In this document: positions 10,445 through 17,730 of the stretch, piece after piece | How the letters are laid out: the number at the start of each line of letters is the position of its first letter | Numbering within the stretch: position 1 is the stretch's first letter | Source of the DNA: Anaerolineaceae bacterium | Lineage (GTDB): Bacteria; Chloroflexota; Anaerolineae; Anaerolineales; Anaerolineaceae | Direction of reading: 5' to 3' | Assembly: GCA_003158355.1 (NCBI GenBank) | Contig: PMIV01000099.1 | Span: 1 to 19,263 of the forward strand | DNA: 19,263 nt | Made by a program: the position numbers and the translations under genes | Notes under the pieces: model-generated | The model's input: only the letters and a program-made list of their open reading frames with translations | Database searches by the model: none | What the model was told of the DNA's origin: nothing

Positions 10445-11281
10445 ATGCAGCAAATAGAGTTTTCCTGGAAGACAAAGAGTGGCTTAAATTTGTATGCCAA
10501 AGAATGGAAACCTGAGGGTAAAGTAAAAGCAGTAGTTGCCCTTGTGCATGGTCTTGGGGAACATATTGGTCGTTATGATCATGTTGCTGAAGCATTTGGC
10601 AAAGCGGGTTTTGCGATGGTGGGTTTTGACCAGCGCGGACACGGCAGATCAGAAGGAATTCGTGGTTACGAAACTTCGTATGATGCGATCATGGACGATA
10701 TTTCTCAAAACATTCAGAATGCCAAAGATCGTTACCCCGGTCTGCCCGTCTTTTTATACGGCCACAGCCTCGGTGGAAACCTAGTTTTGTTTTATGCGCT
10801 CACCCGAAAACCAGAGATAAAAGGCGTCATTGCTACAGCACCAGGCCTGGCTACCGCACAACCCCTCGCTCCAGGACTTTTAGCCATGACCAAGATTCTC
10901 TACCGTCTTGGCCCATCCATGAAGATCAAGAATGGACTCGATCTGGCTGGTCTTTCTCATGATCCAAAAGTAGCCGAGAAATATATTGCTGACCCTTTGG
11001 TTCATCCCTTCATTTCCCCTCGCCTCGCCCTGGACATGCTCAATGCCGGTAAATATTCGGTAGCGCATGCTTCTGAATTTCCGCTGCCATTACTCCTGAT
11101 GCAGGGTACAGCCGACCGCCTGGTCAGCCCCAAGAAAACCAAAGAATTCGCCCTGGCCGCTCCGCTCAGCAAGATCACCTATCGAGAATGGGACGGTTTC
11201 TATCACGAACTGCACAATGAGCCGGAACAGGCCGACGTCATAAAAGTAATGACCAATTGGATGGATCAGGAACTTAAATAA
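10445..11281 (+). CDS. Alpha/beta hydrolase, monoacylglycerol lipase-like (Hydrolase_4/S33 type)
   Basis: A 278-residue soluble alpha/beta-hydrolase that probably cleaves monoacylglycerols or lysophospholipids. The oxyanion-hole loop HGLGEH (35-40), the FDQRGHGRSEG strand (61-71), nucleophile elbow GHSLGG with S108, acid D224 (GTADRLV) and base H254 (GFYHELHNE) give a complete catalytic triad in the order and spacing of monoacylglycerol lipases. A cap region lies at about 135-210. There is no signal peptide, so it should be cytoplasmic. It is divergent from the subtilase and followed by a 32-bp gap before the next promoter; no terminator sits right after its stop, and the first strong hairpin is at 11433. 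Family secure, substrate inferred. Confidence 0.9.
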   Translation: MQQIEFSWKTKSGLNLYAKEWKPEGKVKAVVALVHGLGEHIGRYDHVAEAFGKAGFAMVGFDQRGHGRSEGIRGYETSYDAIMDDISQNIQNAKDRYPGLPVFLYGHSLGGNLVLFYALTRKPEIKGVIATAPGLATAQPLAPGLLAMTKILYRLGPSMKIKNGLDLAGLSHDPKVAEKYIADPLVHPFISPRLALDMLNAGKYSVAHASEFPLPLLLMQGTADRLVSPKKTKEFALAAPLSKITYREWDGFYHELHNEPEQADVIKVMTNWMDQELK

Positions 11282-11313
11282 ACTGATTTACCTGTTTTTG
11301 TTGTTGATGGAAC

Positions 11314-11342
11314 TTGACCTGATACTTATGAAAGAGTAAAAT
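11314..11342 (+). promoter_or_regulatory. Sigma-70-type promoter of the glyA-gcvT fusion gene
   Basis: TTGACC (11314-11319, five of six) and TAAAAT (11337-11342, five of six) are exactly 17 bp apart. Transcription should begin near 11349, giving a leader of about 168 nt before the ATG at 11517. Confidence 0.6.
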
Positions 11343-11432
11343 TGTTCAAATTCAAGAATCAAGCCTTTCCATTTTTTCTCTTTTAGGATTGGGTCAGGCT
11401 CTGAGTCGCGAATGACAGAATATTATCAAAAT

Positions 11433-11478
11433 AAAAAAACCACTCAATGATGTTTCACCTACATCGGGAGTGGTTTTT
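11433..11478. terminator. Strong two-part hairpin with A and T tracts in the glyA-gcvT leader
   Basis: A tract (11433-11439), CCACTC (11440-11445) and GAGTGG (11468-11473) followed by TTTTT (11474-11478) form an outer stem of about 11 bp including A-T pairs. Inside it, GATGT (11449-11453) pairs with ACATC (11461-11465). The symmetry allows termination in either direction. It can end read-through from the hydrolase gene. If transcription starts at the promoter at 11314-11342, the glyA-gcvT message must also pass it, which would make it an attenuator. Confidence 0.7.
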
Positions 11479-11516
11479 ATTTATTTGGTAAATTTTAACT
11501 TTAGGAGAAACCAGTT

Positions 11517-14500
11517 ATGAATGACCTTCTCTTTCACGGTGACCTTTCGGCAGTTGATCCAGAAATATTCAAATTGATCGATCATGAAGCGGAACGTCAG
11601 GCTCGCAAATTGATCCTCATTCCCTCCGAATCGACCGCTCCCGAATCAGTCCGAGAATCACTGGCGTCTCCGTTCCAAAACCTGTATGCAGAGGGATATC
11701 CGGATGAAGAAATGCGCCAGATGTCTGAATCGGAAATCCTGGATTATCCCGCGCGCTTGGCTAATTATCGACGCAATGCTGACCCCCGATACTACAAGGG
11801 AGTTGAGTATGCGGATGTTGTAGAGTCTTTAGCCCGCCGGCGTTGCGCTGAGGTATTTGCAACCGATAAAATTTCACCCGAGCAAATTTTCGTCAACGTG
11901 CAAGCTCTCTCGGGTGCTCCAGCCAATAATGCGGTTTACAGCGCTTTGATCGAGCCAGGGGATACTATTTTGGGCATGAATTTACTTCACGGTGGCCATC
12001 TTAGCCACGGTTCATCCGTCAACCGCTCCGGGAAACTCTATAAAGTTTTCCATTACAATGTCGATCCCCAAACTGAGAAAATCGATTACGACCAGGTGGA
12101 AGCCATAGCAAAAGAATGCCATCCTAAAGTGATCATCTGTGGTTTTTCTTCCTATCCCTGGGTGCCAGATTTTGCACGGTTCCGCGCCATTGCCGATAGT
12201 GTCGGTGCATACCTCCTGGCAGATGTCTCCCATATTGCCGGTATGATCGCTGCCAAAGTATTGCCCTCTCCGGTCGGTTACGCTCATATCATCACCTTTA
12301 CCACGCATAAGACAATGTGCGGCCCGCGTGGAGCCATTATCCTGACCACGGATTCAGCCCTGGCCAAAAAGATCGATAAAGGCGTTTTTCCAGGCGAACA
12401 AGGCGGCCCGCATGTGCATGTCATGGCTGCATTGGCAACGACCTTTCGTCTGGCTAAATCAGATCAATTCAAAGAACTTCAACTACAGATCATCAAGAAC
12501 GCCAAAGCGCTTTGCGATCAACTTATCAAACGCGGTCTACGAATTCCATTCGGTGGAACCAACACTCACCTTTTAAATGTCGATTGTAAAACGATCATCG
12601 GACCTGATGGGACTACTCTTTCCGGCGATATCGCAGCACGAATTTTGGATGTTGCCGGAATTGTTTTAAACCGCAATACTATTCCGGGGGATAAAACCGC
12701 TTTGTATGCATCGGGAATTCGTTTCGGTTCCCCCTGGATGACCCAGCGCGGACTGAAAGAAAAAGAAATGGTCCAGGTAGCTGATATGATCGCCGATATT
12801 TTGTTGGCAACCACCCCTTATACCGTGGAGACACGCAAAGGTCCTGCTAGCCGCGCCAAAGTCGATTTCAAAGTTCTGCAGGATGTACGCTTAAAAGTAC
12901 GCCAACTTACCGACCAGGCTGGTCATGATGTGATCACCGAGCATTCTGGCTATCCATTTTTCTATTACATTGATGACAAGCCCCTTGCTAAAACCGATTG
13001 GGTGGCTTTGGATATTCGCGGCGATCACCTGAATCACTTTATTACGTATACTTTCAGTTCTGCTGCTAATGAACTCAAAAAAGGCGCATCCCAACCAACT
13101 GTTATCCACACCCCAGAACGCGATGTGAACGGCATTCTCACCCTGGTGAATAGTGAGTTATTTCGATTTTCAATTAAAAAAGAAGATTTCGGTCTGGCGG
13201 CCACTTATTTGCGCGACCTTTCCGACGGGTATATCGCCTTTGATAATGACCTGCTGCGTCGTATTCCCGGCCCAATTGTCGTCGAAGAATCCACTGCTGC
13301 AGCGGTCACTCATGCAGATGGGAACACGCTCGATGCGGAAAAACCCTATTTCATCGGGGAAACCCTCGCTTTCGGAAAGGCACTGCCTGAATTTATCTGG
13401 CAAGAAAAAGAAAGCAGTGAACTGTTCCATACCCCTTTGTATGAGACCCACAAAGCCATGGGAGCCAAAATGGTTCCCTTTGCAGGATGGGAAATGCCAG
13501 TATGGTATTCTTCCGTTGTAGAAGAACACCTGGCCACCCGAGAAGCTGCTGGCCTATTTGATGTTTCACATATGGGTGTTTTTCAGGCCGAAGGTCCCGA
13601 GGCTTCTCTATTCCTGGATAGTGTTTGTGGTAACGATATTGGCGGATTGGCAGTGGGTGAATCTTGTTATACCCACTTCTTGGATCCTGACGCGAACGTC
13701 ATCGATGACACTCTGATCTATCACCGCGGTGTCGAAAAATATCTGGTGGTCGTAAACGCCTCAAACGATGCCAAAGATTGGGCCTGGCTCAATGCCGTAT
13801 TGGATGGCAAGGTGATGATTGACCGGGAACAGCCATCGGTAAAAGCAAATGGTCGAAAGGCAACCTTTCGCAACCTGCGCGACCCCAAAGCCGGCCAGGA
13901 CATGCGCGTGGATATTGCCCTGCAAGGGCCAAAATCACGTGATATCTTGCTTACGCTTGGCTGTGACGCTGCCACTACAAAAAAGATCAAAGCTCTAAAA
14001 CGGACTGAACTATGCGATGCTGTGGTGGGGAATTTTGACCTCGTCGTCTCACGCACCGGCTATACCGGCGAGAAGATGGCTTTTGAGCTCTTTGTCCACC
14101 CCGGCAAAGCGGTTGAACTCTGGAATGCCTTAATAAAAGTTGGCGAACCGCTTGGACTCAGACCTTGCGGGCTGGGAGCCAGAGATTCTTTACGAACAGA
14201 AGGCGGTTTGCCTCTATACGGTCACGAAATGGGTGGAGAGATGAATCTTGGCGTAGCGGACGCTGGATTCGGCTCTTATGTAAAAGTGTATAAACCCTGG
14301 TTCATCGGCCGCAGCGCGTATCTAAAACATGAAGCGAATCGTACTGCTGAGGTGATCCGGTTCCGGTTCAATGAAAAGGGGGTTCGTATGGCTCATAATG
14401 CGGACCCGGTGCTGGATGCCAAAGGAAAAGTAATTGGTGTGGTTACCAGTTGTGCAATTGACAAAGAGGGTTATCTGACCGGTCTGGCCTATCTGGATAA

Positions 14501-14645
14501 AAAATCCACTGCTGAGGGCACACCGATCAGTGTCTTCCAAAGTGCTCCAAAACAAGCGGGGAAAGCGCCTGTCGATTTAGTTGATGGTGACCGTGTAAAT
14601 TTGCCTACCCCTGCAACAGTTTTACCCCGGTTTCCTAAACTTTGA
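11517..14645 (+). CDS. Fused serine hydroxymethyltransferase / aminomethyltransferase (GlyA-GcvT)
   Basis: One 1042-residue frame joins two folate enzymes of glycine/serine metabolism. Residues 1-435 are SHMT (serine + THF to glycine + methylene-THF): E59 in AEGYP, D236 and H239 (LADVSHIAG), PLP lysine K265 (TTHKTMCGPRG) and R402 (SGIRFGSP). About 27 residues (63-89) are inserted between AEGYP and RYYKGVEY relative to E. coli GlyA. Residues 636-1042 are a complete GcvT (glycine-cleavage T protein): PFAGWEMPVWYSS (654-666), FDVSHMG (681-687), VIDD with the expected catalytic Asp (728-731), LVVVNASN (743-750), and the C-terminal barrel with KPWFIGRSAYL. The middle (about 440-635) is neither; residues 495-575 look like a decayed GcvT/YgfZ-like half. 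The ATG has AGGAG 9 nt upstream. gcvH and gcvP are not in the window. Both catalytic sets look intact. Confidence 0.95.
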   Translation: MNDLLFHGDLSAVDPEIFKLIDHEAERQARKLILIPSESTAPESVRESLASPFQNLYAEGYPDEEMRQMSESEILDYPARLANYRRNADPRYYKGVEYADVVESLARRRCAEVFATDKISPEQIFVNVQALSGAPANNAVYSALIEPGDTILGMNLLHGGHLSHGSSVNRSGKLYKVFHYNVDPQTEKIDYDQVEAIAKECHPKVIICGFSSYPWVPDFARFRAIADSVGAYLLADVSHIAGMIAAKVLPSPVGYAHIITFTTHKTMCGPRGAIILTTDSALAKKIDKGVFPGEQGGPHVHVMAALATTFRLAKSDQFKELQLQIIKNAKALCDQLIKRGLRIPFGGTNTHLLNVDCKTIIGPDGTTLSGDIAARILDVAGIVLNRNTIPGDKTALYASGIRFGSPWMTQRGLKEKEMVQVADMIADILLATTPYTVETRKGPASRAKVDFKVLQDVRLKVRQLTDQAGHDVITEHSGYPFFYYIDDKPLAKTDWVALDIRGDHLNHFITYTFSSAANELKKGASQPTVIHTPERDVNGILTLVNSELFRFSIKKEDFGLAATYLRDLSDGYIAFDNDLLRRIPGPIVVEESTAAAVTHADGNTLDAEKPYFIGETLAFGKALPEFIWQEKESSELFHTPLYETHKAMGAKMVPFAGWEMPVWYSSVVEEHLATREAAGLFDVSHMGVFQAEGPEASLFLDSVCGNDIGGLAVGESCYTHFLDPDANVIDDTLIYHRGVEKYLVVVNASNDAKDWAWLNAVLDGKVMIDREQPSVKANGRKATFRNLRDPKAGQDMRVDIALQGPKSRDILLTLGCDAATTKKIKALKRTELCDAVVGNFDLVVSRTGYTGEKMAFELFVHPGKAVELWNALIKVGEPLGLRPCGLGARDSLRTEGGLPLYGHEMGGEMNLGVADAGFGSYVKVYKPWFIGRSAYLKHEANRTAEVIRFRFNEKGVRMAHNADPVLDAKGKVIGVVTSCAIDKEGYLTGLAYLDKKSTAEGTPISVFQSAPKQAGKAPVDLVDGDRVNLPTPATVLPRFPKL

Positions 14646-16002: not shown

Positions 16003-17730
16003 TTAACTAGATTCCCAAAGTTTAAACCCTGAAAGAATTGAACCACCGACAAACTCACGCAAGAGTGAGTTATCCGGAATGATGTCTATATTGATTGGCA
16101 GGAACCATTCCAGCATGGTCAAGAGACGTTTTGCCTCAACATATTCAATCGTTCCAAAAGGAACCTGGCGCAACAGCGGTTCAACTACCGATTTCAATGA
16201 AGAGAGTTCATATACCAATGCTGAGTTGAACAATTTATCAGCGTTTTCCTGATAAGGGAAAATATATTCTTTTTCACCGCTGGTAACTGAATCCCAACGT
16301 TGAATTGTTTGCTGTGCCGAGTATCCGCGCTCACGAGCATCTCTCACGATACGCCGCAGCAGACGGGTATCGGTAGTAGAAATCCGATTATAACGGTCCA
16401 GGTTTAACTGGGTTAAACAAGAAGCATAAATTTTAAATGTCGAGGAAGTGGGAACCTCGGGCAACAGGCGCGGATCCAGACCGTGGATCCCCTCCAAAAT
16501 GATTAAATGATCTGTGGTGAGTTTTACGATCTCACCCGATTCTTGCTGTCCGGTTTTAAAATTGTATTTGGGTAATTGAACTTCCTCCCCGGCGATGAGA
16601 CACTGCAAATCATGAGCCAATTTATGATTGTCCATCGCTTCAAGAGCTTCGTAGTTGTAATTGCCTCTGGCATCTCTAGGAGTATTTTCACGGTTTACAA
16701 AATAATTATCCATTTCCATCGGATACGGTGAAAAACCCTGCGCTAAAAGTTGAATTGCCAACCTCTTTGAAAAAGTCGTCTTCCCGGAGGAAGAAGGACC
16801 AGCGATCAAGATAATTCTCGCCGACTCAGATCGATCAGCAATATGTTGCGCGATCTCTGCAATTTGCAACTCGTGCAAGGCTTCAGATATGAGAATCACT
16901 TCCCGCATATTTCCAGACACAATGGCATCATTCAACGCACCCACTGAATCGATTCCCAATCGCTTGAGCCAATTGCCGTATTGCCGAAAAGTGCTCAACA
17001 ATTTTGGATAACTTGTCGTGGGCAGCACTTGCTTGGGTGAGTTTCTGCGCGGAAAGTTCAACACAAAACCATCCCCTACAATACTTAACCCAAACCATTT
17101 CAAAAAACCCGTTGAAGGCAGCATATATCCGTGGTGATAATCGCGATGTTCCCCCAGTTGATAAAGCACCAGATATTCTTTTTGGCGGTACTTCAACAAA
17201 CGGACCTTATCCAGAAAACCCTTTTTCTGAAAATAATCAATCGCTTCTTGTAATGGCACATTCTGGCGGGTAAAAGGAAGATCCTGCGCCACTATTTCGC
17301 GCATTCTAGACTCTAAAAGTTTCAGCTCATCCAGGTTTAATGGCTCTCTGCCAATTACTTCACAATAATATCCACCTGCAGAAACCGAATGGTCAAGCGT
17401 CATGGAGGCCTGGGGAAATAATTCTTCAAACGCGGCCTCAAGCACAAAGGTAACCGAACGACGATAAATTCGTGCGCCATCATCATCAGCCATGGTGACC
17501 GGGCGCACCCGAGCGTCCATTTCAATGGAATAAGTTAATTCGCGCAGTTCACCATTAACAATTGCTCCCATAATGGGCGGTTCCTGCCATTCTGGCAGCA
17601 ACTTCATCAGTTCAAGCAATGAGGCATTCCTTGGACCAGTATAGACTCGTCCATCAGGTATGATAATCTCTATAGTATTTCGTGTTGAAGCGATCTTTGA
17701 ATTAATTCCATCCAACCCACTATTTGTCAT
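16003..17730 (-). CDS. TGS + threonyl/alanyl-tRNA synthetase SAD-like + uridine kinase-like P-loop fusion protein
   Basis: A 575-residue cytoplasmic fusion. Residues 19-78 are a TGS domain (IEIIIPDGRVYTGP), as at the N-terminus of ThrRS. Residues about 100-230 resemble the ThrRS second additional domain (DHSVSAGGYYCEV, HRDYHHGYMLPSTG). Residues 303-500 are a uridine kinase/phosphoribulokinase-type P-loop domain: Walker A GPSSSGKT (311-318), DNYF (341-344), LPKYNFKTG (386-394) and ILEGIHGL (411-418). Fusions of this layout occur in Thermotogae, Clostridia and Chloroflexi and are usually annotated as uridine kinase; the true substrate of this group is not established to my knowledge, and there is no synthetase catalytic core. 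ATG 17730 has GAGGT 6 nt upstream. It stands alone, with terminators on both sides. Confidence 0.92.
   Translation of the reverse strand: MTNSGLDGINSKIASTRNTIEIIIPDGRVYTGPRNASLLELMKLLPEWQEPPIMGAIVNGELRELTYSIEMDARVRPVTMADDDGARIYRRSVTFVLEAAFEELFPQASMTLDHSVSAGGYYCEVIGREPLNLDELKLLESRMREIVAQDLPFTRQNVPLQEAIDYFQKKGFLDKVRLLKYRQKEYLVLYQLGEHRDYHHGYMLPSTGFLKWFGLSIVGDGFVLNFPRRNSPKQVLPTTSYPKLLSTFRQYGNWLKRLGIDSVGALNDAIVSGNMREVILISEALHELQIAEIAQHIADRSESARIILIAGPSSSGKTTFSKRLAIQLLAQGFSPYPMEMDNYFVNRENTPRDARGNYNYEALEAMDNHKLAHDLQCLIAGEEVQLPKYNFKTGQQESGEIVKLTTDHLIILEGIHGLDPRLLPEVPTSSTFKIYASCLTQLNLDRYNRISTTDTRLLRRIVRDARERGYSAQQTIQRWDSVTSGEKEYIFPYQENADKLFNSALVYELSSLKSVVEPLLRQVPFGTIEYVEAKRLLTMLEWFLPINIDIIPDNSLLREFVGGSILSGFKLWESS

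Follow-up and report, generated by a model that had tools for sequence, protein, structure and literature searches.

A 1042-residue protein encoded in contig PMIV01000099.1 of an Anaerolineaceae bacterium (phylum Chloroflexota; GenBank assembly GCA_003158355.1) fuses serine hydroxymethyltransferase (SHMT) to the T protein of the glycine cleavage system (GcvT), with a degenerate second copy of GcvT lying between the two enzymes. The open reading frame (ORF), of the order SHMT–degenerate GcvT–GcvT, occupies 11517..14645 on the forward strand of the 19,263-nucleotide stretch that was analysed (the window). The initial annotation had described a fusion of two enzymes in a single 1042-residue polypeptide. 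The single open frame and the Pfam families PF00464 and PF01571 bear out both enzymes and their covalent union, but the description was incomplete, since the presumed linker is a degenerate GcvT and the protein therefore has three parts. We consider it probable that the protein is a bifunctional enzyme that provides the cell with its SHMT and also its T protein, with the remnant serving as a docking scaffold.

The frame runs without interruption from an ATG to the stop codon, and a likely ribosome-binding site, AGGAG (11503..11507, +), was recognized in the sequence 9 nucleotides (nt) 5' of the ATG. A Pfam scan (E up to 0.001) placed both SHMT (PF00464) and GCV_T (PF01571) in the 1042-residue frame, together with two weak aminotransferase models that fall inside the SHMT part, and detected no domain between SHMT and GcvT. 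Both domains were present in all 120 homologues listed for the window protein (120 of 7893 matches, with 8000 scored), and 118 of them covered at least 99% of the query, the exceptions being P0005 and P0041. The window genome itself gave a single full-length match. A scan of genome contigs yielded 26 loci, 22 of which cover essentially the whole query in a single frame; contig ends cut two others (L021 and L026), and one from Syntrophomonadaceae (L028) is SHMT alone. One open frame holds both domains in 38 of the 41 genomes of the family sample, and the fusion is also present on the complete chromosome of Pelolinea submarina (L014). In a fold search with the full-length protein, only SHMTs appeared among the rows listed, and the absence of a GcvT row there is uninformative.

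Three family genomes are without an intact frame. G308 has a stop within the GcvT part, the gene of G329 is divided between two frames, and in G319 the SHMT frame reaches the end of a 3696-base contig and GCV_T was not found. The frame changes in L027 (5605-8701) and G329 (contig C15) and the stop in G308 (contig C237) occur in draft genomes, where sequencing error and decay are both possible. These few broken members are all that favours an assembly artefact or a frameshift joining two ORFs. Because 118 of the 120 listed homologues have full coverage and the complete P. submarina chromosome carries the same single frame, that explanation is already refuted and its remaining probability is negligible. 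The analysis confirmed that SHMT and GcvT form a true fusion rather than a chance or misassembled one, in agreement with the earlier statement that these are not two adjacent genes.

The SHMT module spans residues 1-475 (11517..12941, +). It scored 433.1 bits against PF00464 (cut-off 27) and passed the NCBIfam cut-off of the PRK00011 subfamily (443.7 vs. 335 bits), and it missed that of the PRK13580 equivalog NF010094 widely (313.7 vs. 735 bits). S37, E59, Y93, H161, D236, H239, H264, K265 and R402, which we take to be the SHMT active-site positions, are all present and are invariant across 59 aligned fusions; among them, K265 (codon 12309..12311, +) is the pyridoxal phosphate (PLP) lysine of the TTHK motif. 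Compared with the solved SHMTs aligned here, which have almost no residues at this point, the fusion carries an insert of about 27 residues (residues 64-90; 11706-11786, +) between YAEGYP and RYYKG.

The C-terminal GcvT module (copy 2) comprises residues 636-1042 (13422..14642, +). PF01571 matched residues 641-910 with 243.7 bits against a cut-off of 25.6, and the gcvT equivalog TIGR00528 was passed as well (255.5 vs. 235.85 bits). D731 (codon 13707..13709, +), within the VIDD motif at residues 728-731, aligns with residue 96 of the Thermotoga maritima T protein, and Y849, E857 and R889 align with residues 188, 195 and 227, as counted on the alignment. We take these four T. maritima residues to bind folate and residue 96 to be catalytic. 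All four are retained in 173 of 177 copy-2 domains. The two catalytic residue sets, which had been described as intact on the strength of K265 and VIDD, are thus both present. Two divergent fusions (L065 and L066, from f48 genomes) differ in that their GcvT match begins about 24 residues late, and L065 lies on a long branch; judging from these sequences, T activity may be altered in both.

Profile, fold and tree agree that a second GcvT copy (copy 1) survives as a remnant in the segment between SHMT and copy 2. Residues 495-594 (12999..13298, +) correspond to GcvT positions 53-155 (hhalign Prob 97.2, E 3.2e-11), and in both the profile and the fold search they resemble the first part of GcvT. 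Further on, the alignment identified KPYFIG (residues 609-614; 13341..13358, +) as what is left of the copy 1 end. In the long forms, copy 1 ends in a comparable K-x-Y-F-[IV]-G stretch, and the retention of KPYFIG is as expected after an internal deletion. A search with a longer relative listed 120 proteins, in 116 of which copy 1 keeps at least 225 of about 408 GcvT positions. The inner copies are graded in length (about 370, 348, 237 and 200 residues). When SHMT and copy 2 were combined in one tree (46 rows, with L062 chosen as the root), short middles nest among long ones via P0239 (335 residues), L052 (348) and L051 (237). Moreover, two genomes carry two different fusion genes each, G192 with middles of 241 (L050) and 237 residues (L051), and G011 with middles of 348 (L052) and 210 residues (L053).

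Sites that are invariant in copy 2 are changed in copy 1: H685 is replaced by D in 111 of 120 copy-1 domains and Y735 by L in 84. In the window, copy 1 has lost the DD motif and lacks the segment that would carry the equivalents of Y849, E857 and R889, and so does not hold the catalytic set of an aminomethyltransferase. Because these residues are kept in copy 2 and changed or gone in copy 1, copy 2 is likely the T site, and copy 1 of the window is predicted to be catalytically dead. The predicted model of the full protein (predicted local distance difference test [pLDDT] score 90.7, predicted template modelling score 0.88), with pLDDT of 84-91 in the blocks covering residues 601-640, fits a middle segment that is ordered and held in a fixed arrangement.

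The genome setting is in line with a protein serving both steps. In the window genome (84% complete), a single SHMT/GcvT locus was found, which is the sole SHMT and the sole T protein detected. The genes gcvH, gcvPA and gcvPB lie consecutively on another contig (C82), and gcvT is absent from the 6.5 kb of that contig. Leaving aside fusion genes and their pieces, the 41 family genomes contain just one SHMT above cut-off, in a bin with 7% contamination (G302, contig C55), and just one such GCV_T ORF, which stands at a contig start and may be a fusion piece (G318, contig C338). The glycine decarboxylase P protein (GDC-P) was found in 36 of the 41 genomes and in 20 of the 21 better ones. Furthermore, a second fusion gene in G318 (contig C417), cut by the contig end, starts 17 nt 3' of gcvPB; the gap after gcvPB in L110 is 17 nt.

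The distribution of the fusion was assessed in a phylum sample of 301 genomes, for which the rows were read by hand and the counts of fusions are lower bounds among the matches listed. At least 55 genomes hold both domains in a single frame, comprising all seven of the family (window included), all 18 others of the order (G232 being cut by a contig start), at least six of 13 others of the class (G144 likewise cut) and at least 24 of the 263 outside the class; most of these 263 showed no fusion among the matches listed. The suggestion that the fusion may be limited to Anaerolineae was therefore not upheld. In addition, with the long form L056 as the query, the matches listed included related proteins of 1226-1349 residues beyond Chloroflexi and Anaerolineae, with source names of Aerophobetes (two), Poribacteria (two), an Actinobacteria metagenome-assembled genome (MAG) and two archaeal MAGs, a Methanomassiliicoccales and a Thermoplasmata archaeon; these names are the submitters' own, mostly for MAGs, and were taken as given.

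Within the class, four of the 13 other members (G088, G128, G136 and G184) showed no fusion among the matches listed and have GcvT in frames without SHMT. A 1432-residue open frame around the GcvT of G128 was dropped as an artefact, the locus having long open frames in several reading frames. In four of the 301 genomes (G189, G241, G280 and G287), the fusion is interrupted, whether by a contig end, a stop or a frame change. In the class family f4 (G037, G152 and G262), SHMT and the middle form one ORF of 591-612 residues and GcvT forms another. Because the split GcvTs nest with the fused L068 (100% support in the Shimodaira–Hasegawa-like approximate likelihood ratio test, SH-aLRT), the f4 split looks like a later event than the fusion. 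The initial annotation had named two observations that would speak against a fusion, homologues consistently split at this junction and an assembly frameshift. Neither was borne out, as 55 genomes with one frame (two of them cut by contigs) stand against three split, all in f4, and four broken, and the listed homologues are almost all of full coverage.

The T protein moves the aminomethyl carbon from H protein onto tetrahydrofolate (THF), and SHMT interconverts methylene-THF and glycine with serine and THF. In the fusion, the T site would transfer the aminomethyl group from lipoyl-H protein to THF, giving methylene-THF and ammonia, and the SHMT site would combine methylene-THF with glycine to form serine, freeing THF again. 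The two sites would thereby close a THF cycle that turns two glycines into one serine, or the reverse, with folate channelled between them, and the middle, a dead GcvT remnant, would persist as an ordered scaffold by which the T domain is fixed to the SHMT body. The computed support for this proposal consists of the single frame, both residue sets, the sole copies detected, GcvH, GcvPA and GcvPB encoded elsewhere, the homology of the remnant, the nested short middles and the ordered predicted model. Beyond this, we infer both activities, the scaffold role, local folate transfer, the direction of flux and a duplication within the fusion. According to PMC7733448, formaldehyde can arise from loaded H protein when T protein is present without THF. 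We suggest on this ground that a supply of THF next to the T site would be beneficial.

Several results weigh against the proposal. Copy 2 just missed the PRK00389 subfamily model NF001567 (287.1 vs. 300 bits, model positions 3-332 of 359). Pfam did not detect the C-terminal barrel PF08669 in the window protein; the family was matched near the C-terminus of the relatives L050, L051, L052, L056, L058 and L071, and strands are predicted at residues 944-1036 of the window protein. The window middle alone gave no match in a sequence search of the PDB at E up to 10 and was not detected against the profile (independent E-value 5.7), and the middles of 17 of 57 fusions missed a threshold of 1e-3; profile and fold comparison were used because the window middle is too worn for a single-sequence match. 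As to the origin of copy 1, a tree grouping copy 2 with stand-alone GcvTs, copy 1 outside, outscored the free quick tree by 41.9 log units in the approximately unbiased (AU) test (p-AU 0.925). Copy 1 could thus stem from a different GcvT-like gene that entered between the two enzymes and decayed later. Copy 1 also has signature residues of its own, such as the aspartate at the position of H685. Against such an insertion, the free quick tree recovered copy 1 as one clade (22 rows, 100%) beside copy 2 and apart from the stand-alone GcvTs (97% SH-aLRT); because the AU test contradicts this tree and the branches are long, the trees are an unsure guide to the source of copy 1. A rare change, in the stretch from W757 to the glycine of QGP, speaks for duplication: this stretch measures 44-46 residues in 175 of 177 copy-2 and 39-47 in 118 of 123 copy-1 domains. 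The three split GcvTs have 31-33 residues there, all 12 stand-alone GcvTs 22-28 and five paralogues 21-36. Similarly, the K-x-x-F-[IV]-G motif starts with KP in 173 of 177 copy-2 and 65 of 123 copy-1 domains, in one of the three split GcvTs and in none of the 12 stand-alone GcvTs or five paralogues. As the insertion is common to both copies and was not seen in the 12 stand-alone GcvTs, the sequences suggest duplication inside the fusion followed by decay, and we regard descent from a different GcvT-like protein as unlikely.

The role of the middle admits further readings. The fusion may be bifunctional with no hand-over of folate, fixing equal amounts and co-expression of the two enzymes, while the middle is a passive, decaying spacer; we give this somewhat less than an even chance. 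The middle is the fastest-evolving part (47-62% identity, nonsynonymous divergence [dN] of 0.34-0.53, vs. 0.09-0.28 for SHMT and 0.16-0.21 for GcvT), which fits a mere spacer and indicates that constraint on it is weaker than on its neighbours, as estimated from the six of eight comparisons that gave values (L019 and L031 gave none), with synonymous divergence saturated or nearly so. Moreover, short middles also occur elsewhere in the tree, outside the main short clade (L054, L055, L062, L065 and L066), and the f4 split, in which the T protein has left, makes clear that covalent tethering is not indispensable. On the other side, none of the 57 fusions has a middle shorter than 194 residues; that set was picked as ORFs of more than 1000 residues and so cannot show that middle-less fusions do not exist, but the ORF list contained none except contig-cut pieces. 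The middle is also predicted to be ordered, and it remains on SHMT after the f4 split. Alternatively, copy 1 of the long forms, and perhaps that of the window, might still bind folate and provide a further THF site, with a relay or regulatory function, between the enzymes. In favour of this, 29 of 120 copy-1 domains retain all four equivalents of D731, Y849, E857 and R889; the other 91 do not (four of the 120 being short forms), and the window remnant has lost the segment for three of the four, so that we find this reading improbable. More tentatively than the bifunctional enzyme with a docking scaffold, and with the odds rather against it, we speculated that an ancient SHMT–GcvT–GcvT fusion spread over several phyla is a self-contained glycine/serine synthase that would cycle THF outside the bulk pool, its inner GcvT having turned into a folate-relay or docking domain and then been whittled down in Anaerolineae. 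If true, the family would preserve a stepwise record of an enzyme domain becoming a scaffold.

Downstream of the fusion, a fold-type-I PLP aminotransferase (PF00155; 14761..15939, +) begins after 115 nt on the same strand. Such a gene follows directly in 24 of the 32 loci tested; it is missing in L016, L020, L025, L063, L070 and L071, while the L018 sequence stops 41 nt past the fusion and that of L110 breaks off within it. The best NCBIfam models were MocR-like aminotransferase domains, and all 25 shown were below cut-off; the enzyme is possibly tied to glycine or serine. The next ORF (16003-17730, −) combines a ThrRS-like N-terminal stretch with a uridine-kinase-like C-terminal part, with matches below cut-offs, and adjoins the aminotransferase in many relatives. 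Upstream, Rfam was searched for a riboswitch, and no family reached the gathering score in the window, with only sub-gathering matches at 11200-11560. A CCACTC/GAGTGG hairpin followed by a T-run (11440-11479, +) just 5' of the fusion is likely the terminator of an alpha/beta-hydrolase gene; it exceeds the loop limit of a simple terminator scan and hence went unreported there.

Compared with GlyA (PF00464), the fusion adds a GcvT remnant and a GcvT to the C-terminal side of SHMT. Its copy 2 shares with GcvT (PF01571; 1yx2, 1woo and 3a8i) the TIGR00528 match and D731, Y849, E857 and R889, but unlike stand-alone GcvT it is fused to SHMT, is preceded by a decayed copy and carries about 18-20 extra residues ahead of the QGP motif. 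Sequence matches in the PDB showed that dimethylglycine dehydrogenase (DMGDH), dimethylglycine oxidase, the sarcosine oxidase alpha subunit and trimethylamine N-oxide demethylase also place a folate-binding GcvT module behind another enzyme. In those proteins the partners are, on our understanding of their chemistry, oxidases, dehydrogenases and demethylases, whereas the present fusion has two GcvT copies and joins them to a PLP enzyme with which the folate is shared. In plant mitochondria, glycine decarboxylase and SHMT convert two glycines to one serine during photorespiration as separate polypeptides; the fusion pairs the same chemistry in one. We found no paper on an SHMT–GcvT fusion in the open-access literature (subscription journals lay mostly outside the coverage), and the parts of PMC1971073 and PMC3223725 consulted mention none. 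In the homologue lists, database names almost always give SHMT only or GcvT only, with P0211 (a JGI name) giving both, so that one of the functions, along with the remnant, is easily overlooked in annotations. We see the protein as a variant on known fused folate enzymes, one that carries a decayed duplicate within it.

Serine and glycine are the sources from which SHMT and T protein produce methylene-THF, and direct hand-over of folate between them is hard to test with separate proteins; the natural fusion provides a defined object for such a test. In addition, the graded inner copies illustrate how, within a fusion, a catalytic domain can be reduced to a structural role.
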